The position numbers were made by a program, and so were the translations under genes. Below, one piece after another: positions 20,222-48,119 of a stretch of DNA of 53,603 nt. The notes beneath the pieces are model-generated. The model was not told where the DNA came from. It was given only the letters and a program-made list of their open reading frames with translations, and searched no databases. The stretch comes from Candidatus Omnitrophota bacterium. Its GTDB lineage: Bacteria > Omnitrophota > Gorgyraeia > Gygaellales > Profunditerraquicolaceae. The first letter of the stretch is position 1. Every line of letters begins with the position of its first letter. The DNA lies in contig JAKPTF010000020.1 of assembly GCA_029571225.1 (NCBI GenBank), positions 1 to 53,603 on the forward strand. Direction: 5' to 3'.

Positions 20222-20968
20222 ATGAAAGTGATCATCCTTGCCGCGGGGTACGCGACGCGTCTGTATCCCCGCACGAAGAACTTTCCCAAGCCGCTGCTCG
20301 AGGTCAATCGAAAACCGATCATCGAGTATTTGATCGAGAAGGTGGAACTCATTCCGGCCGCGTCCAAGGTCATCGTTGTCACCAACGCCCGGTTCGCGGA
20401 TATTTTCCGGCGCTGGGCCGAAAAACTGGATACGCATCTGCCCATTGAAGTGCTCAATGACGGCACGAGGACCCCGGAACAGCGCCTCGGCGCAGTGGGC
20501 GATATGTCGCTGGCGTTCCGGAAGGAGTCGTACCGGGGAGATTTCCTGGTGCTCGGCGGCGACAATTTTTTCCAGGACCCGCTTGACGCGTTCATCGGGT
20601 CCGCCCGGCGCAGAAAGAATGCTGCGACGATAGGGGTTTTTGACATTAAATGCAGGAAGGAGGCCTCGCGCTTCGGGGTCGTGAAGCTTGACGCCAGGCA
20701 CAGGGTCGTGGATTTCACGGAAAAACCAAGCGCCCCTCGTTCAAGCCTGATCGCCATGTGCCTGTATTATTTTCCTCAACAGTCACTCGGCCGCATCAGG
20801 GAGTATCTGGCAGACGGCCGAAATTCATCCGATGCCGCGGGCGCGTATATCAAATGGCTTGCCCGCACGTCAACCGTGTACGGTTATCGTTTCGGCCATT
20901 TGTGGGTGGATATCGGAAACAAGCAGACCTATGACAGGATCAATGAATTAACCAGTGGAAAGGAGTAA
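20222..20968 (+). CDS. Nucleotidyltransferase (sugar-1-phosphate type)
   Basis: A 248-residue single-domain Rossmann-type nucleotidyltransferase. The N-terminal signature [19 protein letters not shown] and [17 protein letters not shown] marks the NTP_transferase family of glucose-1-phosphate thymidylyl- and uridylyl-transferases. The metal-binding Asp is in [11 protein letters not shown], and the lysine and glutamate of VDFTEKP bind the sugar phosphate. GYATRL replaces the more usual GGxGTRL. Length and the C-terminal [17 protein letters not shown] (the usual WxDIGTPE site) suit a short monomodular enzyme, but base and sugar specificity cannot be read. It stands between enzyme I and metK without obvious linkage to either. 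Confidence 0.85.
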
Positions 20969-20972
20969 CTGC

Positions 20973-22136
20973 ATGGAAAAGTTCTTCTTCAGTTCGGAGT
21001 CCGTCACGGAAGGCCATCCCGATAAGCTGTGCGATCAGGTGTCGGATGCCGTCCTGGATTCGGTATTGCGCGAAGACCCTGCCGGCCGCGTCGCCTGCGA
21101 GACCTATGTGACCATGGGGCTTTTGATCGTGGGCGGCGAGATCACCACGCATACCTATGTCGATATACATAAGCTGGCCCGGCAGATCATCAAGGATATC
21201 GGTTATACCCACCCGAAATACGGGTTTGATTATCATACGTGCGCTATTATCAATACGATCCACTCGCAGTCGCCCGATATATCCCAGGGCGTCGATACCG
21301 GCGGCGCCGGCGATCAGGGCATCATGTTCGGATACGCGTGCAAGGAAACCGAGGATCTTATGCCCCTGCCGATCTCCCTTGCGCACGCGCTGACGAGCCG
21401 CCTCACCGAAGTCCGGAAAAAAGGCATCCTGAAATATCTTGGGCCGGACGGCAAATCGCAGGTTGGGGTGGAATACCATAATAACAAACCGGTCCGAGTC
21501 GACAGCGTCGTCATCGCATCCCAGCATACAGACGAGGTCCTTGATAAGTCAGGCAATAACATGTCCGATAAGGCGCGCAAGGAGATCATCGAGGTCGTGG
21601 GCAAAGAGGTCCTCAAAAGCTGGGTCGATAAGAACACCAAATATTACGTCAATCAGACAGGCAAGTTCCTGATCGGCGGGCCGCAATCCGATACCGGCAT
21701 GACGGGCCGCAAGATCATCGTCGACACCTACGGCGGCACCGTGCCGCACGGCGGCGGAGCGTTCTCAGGCAAGGACCCGACCAAAGTGGACCGTTCGGCT
21801 GCGTATATGTGCCGGTATATCGCCAAGAATATCGTCGCGGCGGGCATCGCCGAGAAATGCCTGATACAGCTCGCGTACGTCATCGGATACGCGGATCCCT
21901 TGTCGGTGTTCGTCAACACCTACGGGACGGGCAAAATACACGATTCGGCGATCGTCAAACTGGTGCGGGAGAATTTCGAACTGACGCCCAAGGGTATCAT
22001 CAAGTCGTTGAACCTGCTGCGGCCTATATACAGGAAGACCGCCGCATACGGCCATTTCGGCAGGACCGAACCGGAGTTCACCTGGGAAGCCCTTGACAAG
22101 GTCGAGGTTCTTAAAAAAGCTGCGGCAAAAATATAA
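20973..22136 (+). CDS. metK: S-adenosylmethionine synthetase
   Basis: A 387-residue three-domain enzyme that makes SAM from methionine and [29 protein letters not shown] opens the protein (residues 3 onward), [12 protein letters not shown] is the ATP-site signature, and [19 protein letters not shown] is the phosphate loop. The ATG at 20973 lies behind GGAAAGGAG; an upstream GTG at 20955 is inside that site. The adenosylhomocysteinase gene follows after 18 bases, so synthesis and recycling of the methyl cycle are joined. No SAM riboswitch is seen upstream; the intergenic gap is only four bases. Confidence 0.97.
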
Positions 22137-22154: not shown

Positions 22155-23414
22155 ATGAGATACGATGTAAAGGACTTGAAGCTTGCGAAAAAAGGCGCCT
22201 TGCGCATCGAATGGGCGCGCAACAACATGCCGGTGCTCGGGCTTGTCGCTGCCCGTTTCAAGAAGGAAAAACCGTTGACGGGCCTGTCGATCGCCGCGTG
22301 CCTGCATGTGACGACCGAGACCGCGGTGCTCATGGAGGTCTTGAAGGCCGGCGGCGCCAGCGTCGCGGTGTGCGCTTCAAACCCGCTTTCGACGCAGGAT
22401 GACGTTGCCGCTTCTCTCGTGTCTCATCTGAAAATCCCGGTGTTCGCCATCAAAGGCGAGGATACCAGAACATATTATCGGCATCTGGTGTCCGCGCTTG
22501 CCGTTGGGCCGAACATCACCATGGATGACGGGGCTGATCTCGTATCAACGATCCACCAGGACCCTGCGAAATATTTCAGGAAGCCGATCCTCGGCGGGAC
22601 GGAGGAGACCACGACCGGCGTCATCAGGCTGCGCGCCCTGGCAAACCAGGGGAAATTAAAATATCCCATCATCGCCGTCAATGACGCGCTGACCAAGCAT
22701 ATGTTCGATAACCGCTATGGCACAGGCCAGTCGACGATAGACGGGATCGTGCGCGCGACGAACAAGCTTATTGCCGGGTCGAATTTTGTCGTGTGCGGTT
22801 ACGGCTGGTGCGGACGGGGCCTGGCAATGCGTGCGCAGGGAATGGGCGCAAACGTGATCGTGACGGAGGTCGATCCTCTGCGCGGCCTTGAAGCGGTCAT
22901 GGACGGCTATCGCGTCATGACCATCAAAGAAGCATCGAAGATCGGCGATATTTTCGTCACCGTTACCGGAGACCTCAATGTCATCCGCAAGGAGCATTTC
23001 AGCGTCATGAAAAACGGCGCGATCGTGTGCAATTCCGGCCATTTCAACGCCGAGATCGAGATCCCGGGACTCGAGAAGCTCAAGAAATCCAAGAAGATCA
23101 TCAGGGATTACGTCGAGGAATATACCCTGCGTAACGGTAGAAAAATATATCTCCTGGGTGAAGGGCGCCTTATCAATCTCGCGGCTGCCGAAGGCCATCC
23201 GGCGTCTGTTATGGATATGTCATTTTGCAACCAGGCGCTCGGCGTCGAATATATGAAACAGCATTATAAAGAGATGGACCGGAATGTTTACAAGGTCCCG
23301 GACCCGATCGATAACGAGATCGCCCGTTTGAAGTTAACGTCGATGGGCGTGACGATCGATACGCTGACCGCTGAACAAAAGCGGTATTTGTCAAGCTGGG
23401 AGATGGGAACGTAA
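22155..23414 (+). CDS. ahcY: Adenosylhomocysteinase
   Basis: A 419-residue NAD-dependent hydrolase that splits S-adenosylhomocysteine to adenosine and homocysteine. Substrate segments [14 protein letters not shown] and [11 protein letters not shown], the [18 protein letters not shown] catalytic stretch and the NAD-binding loop [18 protein letters not shown] are all intact. The C-terminal tail ends SWEMGT rather than the familiar K-P-x-x-Y-R-Y, typical of the shorter microbial type. Homocysteine released here is the substrate of the methionine-synthase-like protein at 44.1 kb. AGGAG precedes the ATG. Confidence 0.96.
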
Positions 23415-41721: not shown

Positions 41722-42282
41722 ATGGTCATCCGTTCGCAAAAACGCATAGTTTTTTTCGATATCGACACGCAATACGATTTTATGGATCCGGCGGGCCGCC
41801 TCTACGTGAAGGGCGCGGCGTCGATCGCGGGGAATCTCAGGAAGATTACGGCGCTGGCTGATCGTCGAGGTATCCCGGTCGTATCCACATGCGACTGGCA
41901 CGCGGCGCGGGATCCGGAGTTCGCGTCGTTTCCGGCGCATTGCGTGCGCAATACGCCGGGGGCGCGCAAGATACCCCAGACGATAGCCAAGAGGACGGAA
42001 CAGACGGTGTTGCGCAAATTCACGACTGACGTTTTCTCGAACCCGGCCGTCGGCAGGGCGGTCGGCCGCTACACCGACGTCTACGTCTACGGGGTGGCGC
42101 TTGACTATTGCGTCAAGACCGCATGCCTCGGTGCGCGGCGGCTCGGGCTTCGCGTGTATATGGTCAAAGATGCAGTCAGGGCCATCTCGCCCAAAACGGG
42201 AAGGGCGGTCATGGCTCTGTTGCGCCGCCGCGGCGTGAGGTTCATAACCATGAAAGGATTGAAAAGGAGAATTCTTGTATGA
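41722..42282 (+). CDS. pncA: Nicotinamidase
   Basis: A 186-residue isochorismatase-fold amidase that converts nicotinamide to nicotinate. The catalytic triad is Asp15 (FFDIDTQYDFM), Lys99 (VLRKFTTDVF) and Cys130 (VALDYCVKTAC). The metal site D-x-H...H typical of true nicotinamidases is present as Asp58 and His60 (TCDWH) and His73 (FPAHC). This makes a nicotinamidase more likely than a general isochorismatase. It abuts pncB and overlaps the next start (ATGA). Confidence 0.93.
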   Translation: MVIRSQKRIVFFDIDTQYDFMDPAGRLYVKGAASIAGNLRKITALADRRGIPVVSTCDWHAARDPEFASFPAHCVRNTPGARKIPQTIAKRTEQTVLRKFTTDVFSNPAVGRAVGRYTDVYVYGVALDYCVKTACLGARRLGLRVYMVKDAVRAISPKTGRAVMALLRRRGVRFITMKGLKRRILV

Positions 42283-42905
42283 GCGACCGGGTGCAGGAAC
42301 TGTTGAAAAATCTCAATCGGAGGAATTTCGAAGCTTTGTATTGCAAGACGCGCGATGAGGTCCACGCCGCAATTATGGACCGTATTCCGGAGTCCGCCAC
42401 GGTGGGTTTCAGCGGCTCGCAGACCCTGGAACAGCTCGAAATCGTCGAGATGCTGCAATCCCGGGGGAACAATGTCCTTGATCAGTACGACCCAAAATTA
42501 AGCAGCGATGAGTCCCTGCGTATCCGCAGATTGAGCATCCAGGCGGATTGTTATCTGTGCAGCGCCAACGCGGTCTCAATGCAAGGCGAGCTGGTTTTTT
42601 TGAGCGCCTACGGCCACCGGACCGCGGGCATTGCGGCCGGAAAACGGGTCATCGTCATTTGCGGGTCCAACAAGATAGTCGAGACGCGCGAGGCGGCGAT
42701 CAAGCGCGCGCGGGAACACGCGGCCCCGCTGAACGTCAAGCGCCTTCATTGGGACGCGCCGTGCGCCAAGGACGGTACGTGCCGCCAGGATGTCTGTTTT
42801 TCCCCGGATTATATCCGCATGTGCTGCCAGATGCTGATTCTGGAATCCGAAGTCGATCCTGAGCGCCTGACGGTCATCATCGCCGGCGAAGACCTGGGGT
42901 TGTAG
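42279..42905 (+). CDS. LUD-domain (DUF162) protein
   Basis: A 208-residue LutC/YkgG-like protein. The LUD core shows ATVGFSGSQTLEQLEIVEML, SANAVSMQGELVFLSAYGHRTAGI and KRVIVICGSNKIVETREAAI. The C-terminal part adds a cysteine-rich segment, CAKDGTCRQDVCFSPDYIRMCCQM, as seen in many anaerobic LUD proteins. LutC acts in lactate oxidation with LutA and LutB, but neither is in the window, so a lactate role is not supported. It starts by ATGA overlap with pncA and the next gene follows two bases after its stop. Confidence 0.88.
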   Translation: MSDRVQELLKNLNRRNFEALYCKTRDEVHAAIMDRIPESATVGFSGSQTLEQLEIVEMLQSRGNNVLDQYDPKLSSDESLRIRRLSIQADCYLCSANAVSMQGELVFLSAYGHRTAGIAAGKRVIVICGSNKIVETREAAIKRAREHAAPLNVKRLHWDAPCAKDGTCRQDVCFSPDYIRMCCQMLILESEVDPERLTVIIAGEDLGL

Positions 42906-42907
42906 CC

Positions 42908-43384
42908 ATGCTCACCAAGCGCGTGAACGAATTCCTTAAAAAACGGACGTTCCTGAACGTCGCCACCGCGACGCTTGACGGCAAACCGAACACCGTTTCG
43001 AAGCTGATTCTCAAGGTCGAGGACAACTTCATATATCTGGTCGATTATAGTATCGGCCGGACGTACACCAATGTGAAGGCGAACCCGCAGGTTTCCCTTT
43101 CGTTCTTTGATGTGGAGAGCCTGTCGGGGTATCAGATCAACGGCCCGGTCGAATTGATCGAGAAAGGGCCCCAGTTCGATGCCATCAAGGCGGAACTGAT
43201 GGAAAAGGAGATATCGCTGGCGACGGAGCGCATCATCAAAGGAGTGTCGAGCGGCCACAGCCATGACAAATTCGAGCTTGCGCCGCCGAAACATTTCGTG
43301 ATCTTCAAAGTGAGGATGGAAGAGATCGCGGAGGTCGCCTATTCGGGCGAAATCAAACGGGAAAAATCATACCAGAAGACATAG
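42908..43384 (+). CDS. Pyridoxamine 5'-phosphate oxidase-like flavin-binding protein
   Basis: A 158-residue split-beta-barrel protein. FLNVATATLDGKPNTVSK and NFIYLVDYSIGRTYTNVKANPQVSLSFFD match the PNPOx-like family, which binds FMN or F420. Key residues for true PdxH activity are not obvious, so a vitamin B6 role is not claimed. The last part (KHFVIFKVRMEEIAEV) is the family strand at the dimer edge. It sits 2 bases after the LUD gene and 2 bases before ebfC, probably translated in the same operon. Confidence 0.83.
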   Translation: MLTKRVNEFLKKRTFLNVATATLDGKPNTVSKLILKVEDNFIYLVDYSIGRTYTNVKANPQVSLSFFDVESLSGYQINGPVELIEKGPQFDAIKAELMEKEISLATERIIKGVSSGHSHDKFELAPPKHFVIFKVRMEEIAEVAYSGEIKREKSYQKT

Positions 43385-43386
43385 CC

Positions 43387-43680
43387 ATGCTCGATAAGAT
43401 CAAAGGCCTCATGGAGATGCAAAGGAAAATGCAGGAGGTCAAGCGTCAGCTCGACGCTATGACATTCGAGGTCAAAAGCTCCGACGGCTTCGTCACCATC
43501 GCCATGAACGGGTCGCAGCAGGTGCAATACGTGAAGATCGGCGGGGCAGTGCCGGAAACGAAGACGGAGGTCCTGGAGCGGCAGTTCAAGGATACGTTTA
43601 ACGCTGCAATCCGCCGTTCCCATGAACTGGCGGCGCAGAAGATGAAGGATATCACGGGCGTGAACATACCGGGGGTGTGA
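43387..43680 (+). CDS. YbaB/EbfC-family nucleoid-associated protein
   Basis: A 97-residue protein. The N-terminal coiled-coil helix MLDKIKGLMEMQRKMQEVKRQ and the segment FVTIAMNGSQQVQYVKI match the EbfC fold, which forms DNA-binding dimers. Family members usually carry a short G-x-G-x-V-x-V-x-x-G before that strand; it is replaced here by KSSDGFVTIAMNG, a divergent form. ebfC is usually found between dnaX and recR; here it sits with a PNPOx-like gene and a Minf_1886 protein, so the context is unusual. Confidence 0.8.
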   Translation: MLDKIKGLMEMQRKMQEVKRQLDAMTFEVKSSDGFVTIAMNGSQQVQYVKIGGAVPETKTEVLERQFKDTFNAAIRRSHELAAQKMKDITGVNIPGV

Positions 43681-43682
43681 TC

Positions 43683-44063
43683 ATGGAAAAAACCAAAGGG
43701 TTTTGGGAGATCGTGGAAGCGATATACGAGCGCGACGGCCGGTACAGGCCCGACAGCTATGAGTTCGTCATGCAGGCGCTGCGCTTCACCCAGAAAAAGC
43801 TCAAGCGCGCCGGACACGTCAGCGGCAGGGAACTGTCCGAAGGCATCCGTCAGTACGCCCTGAAGACCTACGGCCCCATGGCGCGCACCGTGCTGGAATA
43901 CTGGGGTATCCGTTCGACCGAGGATATCGGCAATATCGTCTTCAATATGATCGCCGTGAAGCTGTTCTCCAAGACCGAGGATGATTCCATCGATGATTTT
44001 AAAGGTCTTTACCGGTTCGATGAAGCATTCAAACGGACGATAACCGACCTGACCATCACATGA
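43683..44063 (+). CDS. Minf_1886 family protein
   Basis: A 126-residue conserved protein of unknown function. The stretch YRPDSYEFVMQALRFTQKKL, then GHVSGRELSEGIRQYALKTYGPMARTVLEYWGI and DIGNIVFNMI match the Minf_1886 family known mainly from Verrucomicrobia, Planctomycetes and relatives. No catalytic motif is visible; it looks fully helical. The ATG at 43683 is 2 bases after ebfC, with a GTG at 43677 as the alternative. Its presence supports a PVC-group host. Confidence 0.8.
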   Translation: MEKTKGFWEIVEAIYERDGRYRPDSYEFVMQALRFTQKKLKRAGHVSGRELSEGIRQYALKTYGPMARTVLEYWGIRSTEDIGNIVFNMIAVKLFSKTEDDSIDDFKGLYRFDEAFKRTITDLTIT

Positions 44064-45112
44064 GCATGAGGGCAATAGCCACGGGCATCGGCAGCCTGCC
44101 GTTCACGGACCCCGCGCAGGCGGCCGAATTTGTGTTCAGATACCTTCCCGAGGCCCCGTTCTGGCCGCAGCTTCCGAAGCGTAACGTGCGCGAGGGCATG
44201 GTTGAGCAATACAGCGAGGCGCTGCCCGGCCTGAAGGTCACCGATGACGGACTGCAATTCGACCGGAAAACCGCCGAAGAAGCGCTCGAGCCTTTTTATG
44301 AGCGCATCATCTCGATGGACCTGGACCATTTCAGGATCAGCCCTGACCACGCCGCCGGCCTTTACGCTTTCTACGCAGCGCTGAAACAGCGAGGCACCGC
44401 GGGCATCAAGTTCATCAAATGCCACGTGACAGGACCGTTCACCTTTGCCGCCGGCATCATTGACGAAGACAAAGCTGCCCTTATCCATGATGAGATCCTC
44501 ATGCAGGCGATGGTCAAGGGGCTGGCAATGAAGGCGCTCTGGCAGGTCAAGCTGTTTTCGGAATTCGGAAAGCCGATTGTCGTGTTCATCGATGAACCGT
44601 ATCTGGCAGGGTTCGGGTCGGCGTTCACCGCATTGACGAGGGAGACGGCAGTCAGGGTCCTGTCCGAGGTCTCTGCCGCGATCAAGACCCCGGACTGCCT
44701 GGTGGGCGTGCACTGCTGCGGCAACACGGACTGGTCCATATTCACCGATGTCAGGACCATAGATATCATCAATTTCGATGCGTTCGGTTTTCTGGATAAA
44801 TTCACCCTGTATGGCGGTGAGATATCGAAATTCCTCGAGCGCGGAGGCTATATCTGCTGGGGTATTGTGCCTACGCAGGAGTTCAGACCGGGCCTGACAT
44901 CCCGGTCGCTCTCGGACAGGATACAGCAGGGTATCGGCGTTCTGGCCCGTAAAGGCGCAGACCCAGGCCTGCTGTCGGAACAGCTCTTGATCAGTCCCAG
45001 CTGCGGGCTCGGCACCCTCGATCCTTCAAGCGCTGACCAGATCTTCCGCCTTCTCAAAGAGCTTTCAGGGCATATCCGTTCGACCCCTCCGCAAGGCGGA
45101 AAAAATCATTGA
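44060..45112 (+). CDS. Core methionine-synthase-like (UroD/MetE C-terminal fold) methyltransferase
   Basis: A 350-residue TIM-barrel protein of the MetE catalytic domain/UroD superfamily. Zinc-thiol ligands are His218 and Cys220 (VGVHCCGNTDW) and Cys315 (LISPSCGLGTL), the H-x-C...C pattern that activates homocysteine. No N-terminal folate domain exists, so it cannot be a classic MetE. Stand-alone cores of this kind in anaerobes with the Wood-Ljungdahl pathway (MesB type) are thought to take methyl groups from the corrinoid protein. That fits AcsD/AcsE here and metK/ahcY, but is inference. Other possible substrates are coenzyme M or methoxylated compounds. The ATG overlaps the Minf_1886 stop (ATGA). 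Confidence 0.8.
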   Translation: MSMRAIATGIGSLPFTDPAQAAEFVFRYLPEAPFWPQLPKRNVREGMVEQYSEALPGLKVTDDGLQFDRKTAEEALEPFYERIISMDLDHFRISPDHAAGLYAFYAALKQRGTAGIKFIKCHVTGPFTFAAGIIDEDKAALIHDEILMQAMVKGLAMKALWQVKLFSEFGKPIVVFIDEPYLAGFGSAFTALTRETAVRVLSEVSAAIKTPDCLVGVHCCGNTDWSIFTDVRTIDIINFDAFGFLDKFTLYGGEISKFLERGGYICWGIVPTQEFRPGLTSRSLSDRIQQGIGVLARKGADPGLLSEQLLISPSCGLGTLDPSSADQIFRLLKELSGHIRSTPPQGGKNH

Positions 45113-45137: not shown

Positions 45138-45173
45138 AGCTTCTGTTTTATTTAAAAATAAGGAGTGCAAAGC

Positions 45174-45722
45174 ATGAAAGAAATCCGAATTCACGCCCGT
45201 GCAGGGCAGGGTGCGATCACGACCGCTACGATCCTGGGTAACGCCTATTTCCTGAAGGGCCAGTATCCATACGCGTTCCCGCATTTCGGCGCGGCGCGTA
45301 TGGGCGCTCCCATGAATGCGTTCGTCCGTGTCGATTCCCGGCCGGTGAGGCTGCGCAGCCAGATTTATGAGCCTGATTATATCATCATCGTCGATGCGAC
45401 GCTTATGCGCGGTTTCAATTGTTTTTCCGGCCTCAAAGAGGACGGGGTCGCGGTCGTATCTCAAAGGGAAGGGGTCGAGGTCCCTAAGCTTAAGGCCAAG
45501 CAAAAATGCTACGTTCTTCCGGCCAACGATATCGCCCTGAAGACCATCGGCAGGCCGCTGGGCAATACCGCGCTTCTGGGCGCGTTCTGCGCCGCTACCG
45601 GCGATCTTGATCTGGACAGCCTGATTAAGGCCGTGGGCAAGCGGTTTTCCGGCAAGGCACTTGAAGGCAATATCGAGGCGATCAGGCAGGGTTTTGATTT
45701 TGTCAATAAACTCAAGAAATAA
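45174..45722 (+). CDS. porG: 2-oxoacid:ferredoxin oxidoreductase gamma subunit (PorG)
   Basis: A 182-residue gamma subunit. EIRIHARAGQGAITTATILGNAYF opens the protein and YPYAFPHFGAARMGAPMNAFVRVD follows, both typical of the PorG/VorG family. AAGGAG is eight bases before the ATG; an upstream GTG at 45165 overlaps this site. It heads the run gamma-delta-alpha-beta-ferredoxin, the same subunit order as pyruvate oxidoreductases of Thermotoga-like and other anaerobes. The complex reversibly decarboxylates pyruvate, or carboxylates acetyl-CoA, with ferredoxin. Confidence 0.93.
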   Translation: MKEIRIHARAGQGAITTATILGNAYFLKGQYPYAFPHFGAARMGAPMNAFVRVDSRPVRLRSQIYEPDYIIIVDATLMRGFNCFSGLKEDGVAVVSQREGVEVPKLKAKQKCYVLPANDIALKTIGRPLGNTALLGAFCAATGDLDLDSLIKAVGKRFSGKALEGNIEAIRQGFDFVNKLKK

Positions 45723-45750
45723 TATCCAGTAAAACGCAAGGAGCGTTGGT

Positions 45751-46023
45751 ATGTTCGGTCCGCTTATCTGCAAAGCAGGTTCCAGTATCAAGAATAAAAC
45801 CGGGTCATGGCGTGTGGAGATGCGGCCGCGGTTCCTTCATAAGAACTGCATCGGCTGCAAAATGTGCCTGGTCATCTGCCCGGAGGGGTGCATTACCGGA
45901 GAGGAAAAGAACGCCTATGATTTCGATCCGGCTTTCTGCAAAGGCTGCGGACTGTGCGCGGTGGCCTGCCCCAAGAAAGACATCGAGATGGTCAAGGAAG
46001 AATCCGTAAAAGAGCAGAAATAA
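45751..46023 (+). CDS. porD: 2-oxoacid:ferredoxin oxidoreductase delta subunit (PorD)
   Basis: A 90-residue ferredoxin-like subunit with two 4Fe-4S motifs: NCIGCKMCLVICPEGC at about 47-62 and CKGCGLCAVACP at about 68-79. It relays electrons from the catalytic alpha-beta pair. The lead segment SWRVEMRPRFLHKNC is characteristic of PorD. It follows porG after 28 bases and precedes porA after 37 bases, all in the same direction. Confidence 0.94.
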   Translation: MFGPLICKAGSSIKNKTGSWRVEMRPRFLHKNCIGCKMCLVICPEGCITGEEKNAYDFDPAFCKGCGLCAVACPKKDIEMVKEESVKEQK

Positions 46024-46060
46024 CCATGAGTGTTTACAAGCCTACGAAAGAGGATGTGAT

Positions 46061-47242
46061 ATGAAAGAGTTCCTTGAAGGTTCCATGGCAGTCGCCAGGG
46101 CTGTCGCATTATGCAGGCCGGGCGTCATTTCGGCATATCCGATCACGCCGCAGACCCATATTGTCGAAGAACTTGCCCAGATGGTCGCCGACGGGCACCT
46201 CAATGCGCAGTTCGTCAACGTCGAATCAGAGCATTCAGCGGCTTCGGTCGTCCTTGGCGGCGAGGCTGCGGGCGTGCGTTCTTATACCGCCACGAGCTCG
46301 CAGGGGCTTTTCCTCATGGCGGAGGTCGTGTTTAATATCGCCGGCATGCGCCTTCCCATTGTCATGACCGACGCCAACCGCGCTATCTCGGCGCCCATCA
46401 ATATCTGGAACGACCAGCAGGATACCATATCGCTGCGCGATTCAGGATGGGTGCAGCTCTATATGGAGGACCTCCAGGAAACAGTCGATTTCCATATTAT
46501 GGCGTATCGCCTCGGGGAAGATAAATCCATCATGCTTCCCGTCATGGTCTGTATGGACGGCTTTATCCTGACCCACGGCATCGAAACCGTCGATATGCCG
46601 TCACAGGAACAGGTCGATAAATTCCTCCCGCCGTATAAAGCCCTCTACAAGCTTGACGTCGAGAATCCCATGACGCTGGGGCCGCTGGCCGATCCGGATT
46701 ATTATCTGGAAGCGCGCTACGCGATCCACGCGACCCATAAGAAGGTCCTGGAGCTTCTTCCGAAGATCACCGCCGAATACGCGAAGGCGACAGGCAGGTC
46801 GTATAACGGATTGGTCGAAGGGTACCAGATCAAGGATGCCGAACGCGTCCTCGTGGCCATGGGCTCCGTGTGCGGCACGATCAAGGATGTGGTCGACGAA
46901 CTGCGCGCCAAAGGCAAGAAAGTCGGATTGCTCAAAGTCACCTGTTTCAGGCCGTTCCCGGCAGAACAGATCTGCGGCGCATTAAAGAACGTCGCACGCG
47001 TCGGCATCGTCGATAAATCGGTTTCGCTCGGCTCCTACGCGCCGCTCGCCGCGGAGATGAAGGCGGCGTTCTTCGGCAGGAAAAAGAAGCCGGAGATCAT
47101 ATCGAGCTTTGTCGCGGGCCTCGGCGGCAGGGACATCACCAAAGAATCGGTCAAAGAGATGTTCAGCATGCTCACGCAAAAGGAGAAGGCATGCGAGTAT
47201 ATAGACCTCAAACCGGAATTATTAAAGGAGAATTATGAATAA
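46061..47242 (+). CDS. porA: 2-oxoacid:ferredoxin oxidoreductase alpha subunit (PorA)
   Basis: A 393-residue alpha subunit. ISAYPITPQTHIVEEL, NVESEHSAASVVLGGEAAGV and TATSSQGLFLMAEVV are family signatures. NRAISAPINIWNDQQD and the SGWVQLYMEDLQETVDF segment fit the pyruvate-type enzymes. The last part (KKVGLLKVTCFRPFPAEQI) is the C-terminal transketolase-like domain. Its stop overlaps the porB start region by eight bases. Substrate is most likely pyruvate; 2-oxoisovalerate or 2-oxoglutarate are less likely. Confidence 0.95.
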   Translation: MKEFLEGSMAVARAVALCRPGVISAYPITPQTHIVEELAQMVADGHLNAQFVNVESEHSAASVVLGGEAAGVRSYTATSSQGLFLMAEVVFNIAGMRLPIVMTDANRAISAPINIWNDQQDTISLRDSGWVQLYMEDLQETVDFHIMAYRLGEDKSIMLPVMVCMDGFILTHGIETVDMPSQEQVDKFLPPYKALYKLDVENPMTLGPLADPDYYLEARYAIHATHKKVLELLPKITAEYAKATGRSYNGLVEGYQIKDAERVLVAMGSVCGTIKDVVDELRAKGKKVGLLKVTCFRPFPAEQICGALKNVARVGIVDKSVSLGSYAPLAAEMKAAFFGRKKKPEIISSFVAGLGGRDITKESVKEMFSMLTQKEKACEYIDLKPELLKENYE

Positions 47243-48119
47243 ACATCTGTATGCCCCCGGGCACACCGCCTGCGCCGGATGCGGCCAATCGCTCGCCGTG
47301 CGGCTCGTCATGGACGCGGCGGGAAAGAACACGATCGTCGCCAACAATACCGGCTGCCTTGAAGTCTTCTCGACCAAATATCCCGAATCCGCCTTTGAAG
47401 TGCCGTTCATCCATTCCCTGTTCGAGAACGCGCCTGCGGTCGCATCAGGGGTCGAAGCCGCGCTTATCCACCTGGGCAAAAAGGAAGGCACCAACATCAT
47501 CGCCGAGGCAGGCGACGGCGGGACTGCGGATATCGGCCTTCAATCACTGTCGGGCATGTGGGAACGCGGCCATGATATCCTCTATATATGCTATGACAAT
47601 GAGGCCTACATGAATACCGGCATCCAGAGAAGCGGCCTGACCCCGCATCTTGCCAATACCACCACGAGCCCCAAGGGGCAGAAATCGAGCGGCAACCTGC
47701 GTTTCAAGAAGCCGATCCCCGAGATCGCCAACGCGCACGGCATCCCGTATGTGGCGACTGCGTCCATCGGTTATCCTCAGGATATCCAGCGCAAGGTAAA
47801 AAAAGCGCTTTCGATCAAAGGCCCGAAATACCTGCAGATCCATGTCCCGTGCCCGCTGGGCTGGCAGTTCGCGCCGCAGGCATCGGTCGATGTGGGCAAG
47901 CTCGCGGTCGAGACCGGCTTGTATCCGCTGTTTGAATATGAGAACGGCCAGTTGACTGCCGTGCGCAAGATCACCCCGAAGCCCGTTGAGGAATACCTCA
48001 AGTCACAGGGCAGATTCAAACATCTCTTGAACAATCCTGAAGGTATTGCCCAGGTCCAGGCTGTTGCGGACAGGAATATAGCGAAATACGGTTTAAAGGC
48101 GGAAAACACGAGCGCGTAA
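47235..48119 (+). CDS. porB: 2-oxoacid:ferredoxin oxidoreductase beta subunit (PorB)
   Basis: A 294-residue ThDP-binding subunit. CAGCGQSLAVR (residues 13-15 region) supplies cluster ligands, NNTGCLEVF follows, and the ThDP/Mg motif is GDGGTADIGLQSLSGMWERG with CYDNEAYMNTGIQRSG. The C-terminal half keeps the remaining fold with no obvious cluster motif. It overlaps porA by eight bases and the ferredoxin gene follows 25 bases downstream. With acs genes at the other end of the window, it can provide pyruvate from acetyl-CoA. Confidence 0.95.
   Translation: MNKHLYAPGHTACAGCGQSLAVRLVMDAAGKNTIVANNTGCLEVFSTKYPESAFEVPFIHSLFENAPAVASGVEAALIHLGKKEGTNIIAEAGDGGTADIGLQSLSGMWERGHDILYICYDNEAYMNTGIQRSGLTPHLANTTTSPKGQKSSGNLRFKKPIPEIANAHGIPYVATASIGYPQDIQRKVKKALSIKGPKYLQIHVPCPLGWQFAPQASVDVGKLAVETGLYPLFEYENGQLTAVRKITPKPVEEYLKSQGRFKHLLNNPEGIAQVQAVADRNIAKYGLKAENTSA

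Follow-up and report, generated by a model that had tools for sequence, protein, structure and literature searches.

The MesB family of core methionine synthases, and the prediction that its members take their methyl group from the corrinoid iron-sulfur protein (CFeSP), have already been published (PMC7005905, PMC7857596), so that the novelty of the case described here is limited. Price et al. set the threshold of the family at no less than about 29% identity or 130 bits to the MesB of Dehalococcoides mccartyi; in MetE, the zinc is bound by His641, Cys643, Glu665 and Cys726, and the homocysteine by Ser433 and Asp599 (PMC7857596). The Wood-Ljungdahl pathway of the Omnitrophota has also been described (PMC10066038); the word methionine does not occur in the main text of that publication. 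Here we carry the prediction for MesB over to an uncultured phylum, on which the MesB publication is silent in its main text, and add a test of co-occurrence and mutual exclusion inside one phylum, with switches inside two of its families (f1 and f34).

The mesB-like gene and its predicted active site

The window (the whole stretch of DNA analyzed, 53,603 nucleotides from a Candidatus Omnitrophota bacterium) contains at 44060-45112 (+ strand) a gene for a protein of 350 aa. Its open reading frame, conservation and predicted fold make it probable, at a high level of confidence, that this is a core methionine synthase of the MesB type. The protein is a single barrel domain, and the N-terminal domain of MetE is missing, as an earlier note on this DNA had claimed. 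The start ATG overlaps the stop codon of the preceding gene (ATGA) in an operon-like row on the + strand. Upstream are LUD domain, PNPOx-like, YbaB/EbfC and Minf_1886 family genes (42282-44063, +, also operon-like), partly conserved beside the mesB-like gene in the family and order of the window. Directly downstream are porG, porD, porA and porB (45165-48119, +), for a 2-oxoacid:ferredoxin oxidoreductase, a neighbor conserved in the order. This neighborhood does not by itself indicate the function of the gene.

The predicted zinc ligands are His218 (codon at 44711-44713), Cys220 (44717-44719), Asp240 (44777-44779) and Cys315 (45002-45004), all on the + strand like the codons given below. The pattern formed by His218, Cys220 and Cys315 had been pointed out in the earlier note and stands. 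Asp240, the predicted fourth ligand, had been overlooked there, together with two residues of the putative homocysteine site, namely Ser12 (44093-44095), equivalent to MetE Ser433, which contacts the carboxylate, and Asp178 in a DEP motif (44591-44593), equivalent to MetE Asp599, which contacts the amino group (roles as in MetE, PMC7857596). All six residues are invariant in 147/147 relatives (67/67 Omnitrophota homologues and 80/80 further loci), far beyond chance. The further loci are the best 80 of at least 568 from a contig scan of named records and belong to Nitrospirota, Planctomycetota (including Brocadia and Scalindua), deltaproteobacterial groups, Aminicenantes, Elusimicrobia, Lentisphaeria and Omnitrophota; no Chloroflexota-titled record appears among these 80 best loci.

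The complete set of residues invariant in the 67 Omnitrophota homologues is S12, P36-Q37, E45, Q50, K120, G125, D178-E179-P180, H218, C220, W225, D240 and C315-G316, of which E45 and Q50 are candidates for the equivalent of MetE Glu484. His122 (44423-44425) agrees in number and motif (K-x-H-x-x-G) with His122 of D. mccartyi MesB, the proposed lower ligand of cobalamin, and falls within a K-x-x-x-T-G-P stretch common to MetE. Since this position of the HxxG motif is occupied by Gln in 90/147 relatives, it does not define the family, and we have rejected a cobalamin-ligand histidine as a family feature. In a phylogenetic tree, the clade of the window makes up one supported group of its order, with L076 and L139 inside it. 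The remaining Omnitrophota are grouped apart from it, with other phyla between the two; the deep branches are weak.

The AlphaFold2 model of the protein, built with 29 homologues, has a mean pLDDT of 93.8 and a pTM of 0.92. Its 16 best fold matches in the PDB are MetE (E 6e-9 to 6e-7), followed by a Methanosarcina mazei methyltransferase (4ay7, MtaA-like) and UroD at E 1e-6. A Pfam search with the protein gave no match (several close relatives weakly pass the Meth_synt_2 cut-off), and its sole significant NCBIfam match was PRK00957, 'methionine synthase', with 34 bits vs. a cut-off of 258, so that automatic annotation may miscall a methionine auxotrophy that is probably untrue. Within the family, PRK00957 is matched by 13/29 members (best E 1e-12), the MtbA/MtaA models weakly by one or two of the 29 (E 0.005) and the URO-D model weakly by one (7e-4); the window protein itself matches neither the URO-D nor the MtaA/CmuA models. 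By model matches and fold, there is no grouping with coenzyme-M methyltransferases or UroD, in keeping with the earlier note. An hhalign comparison of the family with Omnitrophota MetE gave a low probability (18%), with the KxxxTGP, DEP, HxC, Asp/Glu and Cys elements collinear, an arrangement that is consistent with a relationship and not proof of it. Matches to pentatricopeptide proteins, obtained with phmmer and with a profile against PDB sequences, were discarded as artifacts of summed weak repeats, and no true relative was found among them. A URO-D search of the relatives yielded two fragments, unsuitable as an outgroup. A further URO-D-like match (G079 C2:346603-347337, L186) lies within a reading frame that runs for 42,913 codons without interruption.

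Methionine synthases and CFeSP across the Omnitrophota

The window also carries, all on the + strand, a gene for a cooC-like ATPase of CODH maturation (295-1059; a CbiA/ParA-type P-loop ATPase, named CooC from its place beside acsD and acsE), acsD (1098-2069), for the small subunit of CFeSP, the proposed methyl donor, acsE (2099-2887), for the methyl-THF:CFeSP methyltransferase, metK (20955-22136), for methionine adenosyltransferase, and ahcY (22155-23414), for adenosylhomocysteinase. The earlier note took the presence of acsD, acsE, metK and ahcY as a link from CO2-derived methyl groups to SAM. The genes are indeed there, but as evidence for such a link their position is weak, because cooC and acsDE are 41 kb and metK and ahcY 21 kb away from the mesB-like gene and no linkage of this kind was seen in the flanks of relatives examined. 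The support for a CFeSP-fed synthase comes from the comparison of genomes and not from the sharing of a 53-kb window with acs, metK and ahcY.

The assembly to which the window belongs (1.92 Mb, 114 contigs) is 88% complete. Within it we found no MetH apart from the pterin domain of AcsE, no Meth_synt_2 (MetE) protein, N- or C-domain, and no S-methyl_trans; the absence of a complete metH or metE is what the earlier note had proposed to check. MTHFR is encoded. AcsC was found nowhere in this assembly, the contig of which breaks 5' of cooC-acsD-acsE; only AcsD is present, at a contig edge, and most carriers of the family have both CFeSP subunits. HcyBio is absent from this genome and present in G205, of the same genus, and in 20/31 genomes searched.

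Across 285 Omnitrophota genomes, the mesB-like protein was found in 101. CFeSP is present in 97 of these 101 carriers (39 expected), the MetH homocysteine domain (S-methyl_trans) in 3 (42 expected) and MetE in 4 (20 expected). The corresponding Fisher p-values (1e-55, 1e-26 and 1e-7) ignore relatedness and are inflated, and the absences provisional, because the genomes are related and incomplete. In the whole set, 94 genomes have only the mes-like protein, 104 only MetH, 41 only MetE and 28 none of them. The same alternation is seen within single families: in f1, 48 genomes have mes and CFeSP without MetH and two have MetH without mes and CFeSP, and in f34 the respective numbers are two and six. 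We regard the co-occurrence and these switches as the main evidence that the mes gene would be the methionine synthase of CFeSP genomes, and at the level of genomes they give good support to the folate-free, CFeSP-fed synthase put forward in the earlier note. There are exceptions. In family f19, G053 and G138 (L060, L056) have a mes-like protein without detected CFeSP, MetH or MetE, and G003 and G080 contain divergent homologues together with split MetE and without CFeSP. The donor may therefore not always be CFeSP. It also counts against the CFeSP reading that in the order of the window the gene keeps company with por genes and not with acs genes. Three f20 genomes (G055, G075 and G133) combine mes-like protein and CFeSP with an S-methyl_trans protein in a frame of 613-633 aa, shorter than MetH.

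In distant relatives the gene has other neighbors, namely genes of CODH/ACS or of homocysteine biosynthesis. The order mes-cooC-cooS-acsB is found in Lentisphaeria/Victivallales (L141, L145) and mes-cooC-cooC-cooS in Aminicenantes and Tritonobacter (L102, L142). In an Actinomycetota record (L127:4241-7029) HcyBio (PF01837), a NIL-ferredoxin and mes form one run, an apparent operon that would lead from homocysteine synthesis to methionine. Beside acsC, at L153:2827-3975, there is an ORF with intein/homing-endonuclease-like sequence.

Eleven genomes with clear CFeSP lack the 345-aa mes form, MetH and MetE, and eight of the 11 encode a protein of 228-244 aa instead. This short form aligns with the mes family by hhalign (probability 99.7%, E 1e-26), and its seven complete copies keep all of the S, D (DEP), H, C, D and C residues, with a His-Cys distance of 62. 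Loci of the short form are L170:1348-2046 (+), L166:1324-2058 (+), L167:1315-2010 (-), L168:1342-2028 (+), L171:1297-2004 (-), L172:1321-2034 (-) and L173:1306-2001 (-). In a phylum-wide search, strong matches were obtained in exactly those 8/285 genomes, and counting both forms 105/110 CFeSP genomes have a core synthase. Its gene follows folE and purH in several genomes and is 12-15 kb from acsC/acsD in three. The structure model had a pLDDT of 68, leaving the fold unsupported, and no significant PDB match to it was found. A core synthase function is suggested by the conserved residues and by complementarity only. The folE of G215 (L170:1-1341) is interrupted by an intein-like insert. Taken further, the pattern would mean that Wood-Ljungdahl Omnitrophota make methionine almost only by CFeSP-charged, folate-free core synthases, and that f25, f28 and f38 have swapped in a minimal synthase of about 231 residues, a generalization to which we give even chances. 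If true, the short form, with about 110 residues fewer, would be smaller than the described MesA-MesD enzymes and would show the minimum that an enzyme needs for corrinoid-dependent methionine synthesis.

The origin of the methyl group

The interpretation that we favor, and consider quite likely, is a MesB-type core methionine synthase that most likely receives its methyl group from methyl-CFeSP; zinc binding, homocysteine as acceptor and CFeSP as donor are what we infer. In the MetE-like barrel, His218, Cys220, Asp240 and Cys315 would coordinate a zinc ion that binds and deprotonates homocysteine, and Ser12 and Asp178 would hold the carboxylate and amino group of this substrate. With no folate domain, the enzyme would depend on a methyl-corrinoid protein as methyl donor. 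This is most likely methyl-CFeSP (AcsC/AcsD), charged by AcsE from the methyl-THF that the Wood-Ljungdahl methyl branch would supply. MetK would convert the methionine into SAM and AhcY would return homocysteine. Should CFeSP be the donor, the carrier of methyl groups in CO2 fixation would itself be the branch point for methionine and SAM.

A core methionine synthase could also be served by a methyl-corrinoid protein other than CFeSP, either a stand-alone B12 protein or one that resembles MtbC/MtaC, CFeSP being then a mere correlate of anaerobic C1 metabolism. The two f19 genomes without CFeSP would fit this, as would an Aminicenantes locus (L103) with a gene for a B12-binding protein about 0.9 kb upstream of mes, and Price et al. 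(PMC7857596) allow such donors for paralogues. Nevertheless, CFeSP, the only corrinoid family surveyed, is found in 97/101 carriers, and neighborhoods with mes, cooC, cooS and acsB do exist, which makes this alternative unlikely in our opinion. Direct use of methyl-THF, with the N-domain of MetE dispensed with or borrowed as in split MetE, appears very improbable. MTHFR is encoded in the genome, and some homologues do have suggestive neighbors: in G003 (L063), which lacks CFeSP, the gene has metF as its immediate neighbor on one side and a split metE pair on the other, and in G043 (L064, L065) mes-like paralogues are located downstream of metE and thyX, so that the homologues of these two genomes possibly have a different methyl donor. 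Against it, the window's own genome has no protein with a MetE N- or C-domain, MesB was inactive with methyl-THF (PMC7005905) and such an enzyme would have no need of co-occurring with CFeSP. An acceptor other than homocysteine, as in the corrinoid:thiol methyltransferases (MtaA/MtbA/CmuA) or the UroD superfamily, is scarcely credible to us. The superfamily fold is shared, with the MtaA-like 4ay7 and UroD as the next fold matches, and one or two of the 29 members match the MtbA/MtaA models at E about 0.005; yet the homocysteine-site Ser and the Asp of DEP are invariant, 13/29 members match the methionine synthase model, and both the exclusion of MetH/MetE and the HcyBio operon (L127) speak for homocysteine.

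Comparison with described methionine synthases

Among the described enzymes, the C-terminal domain of MetE (Meth_synt_2) has the fold, the zinc site and the homocysteine site in common with the window protein, but MetE has in addition an N-terminal folate domain and a Glu as zinc ligand where the window protein has Asp. Lacking both the two-domain build and this Glu, the protein is not a MetE. MesA of methanogens, for which the nearest library model is probably PRK00957, is also a single-domain core methionine synthase; however, it is confined to methanogens, where it is predicted to use MtrA, and the bacterial origin of our protein and its score (34 vs. 258 bits) rule out this identity. MesC, with His replacing Cys643, is ruled out by the invariant Cys220. 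MesD is found in aerobic bacteria and needs MesX (DUF1852); the window's genome has CODH/ACS genes.

In published residue numbers and length, the closest resemblance is to MesB of D. mccartyi (cbdbA481; PMC7005905, PMC7857596). MesB is a single domain of about 343 aa, against 350 aa here, and its zinc ligands His215, Cys217, Asp236 and Cys312 (PMC7005905) have a spacing of 2/19/76 vs. 2/20/75 in the window protein, with Asp as the fourth ligand in both. The distance from His to the last Cys is 97 in both proteins and 85 in MetE. The homocysteine-site Ser and Asp are likewise shared, and both proteins have an HxxG with His122, a position that varies within the family. MesB is confined to genomes with CFeSP, and in the Omnitrophota 97/101 carriers have it. 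In D. mccartyi, metK and ahcY belong to the same operon as the mesB gene, whereas the gene of the window adjoins por genes. Finally, D. mccartyi lacks MetF and AcsE and the genome of the window has both, therefore methyl-THF can charge CFeSP here, and the genomes containing AcsE and MTHFR, together with the 231-aa form, make the role of CFeSP as donor tractable to a test.
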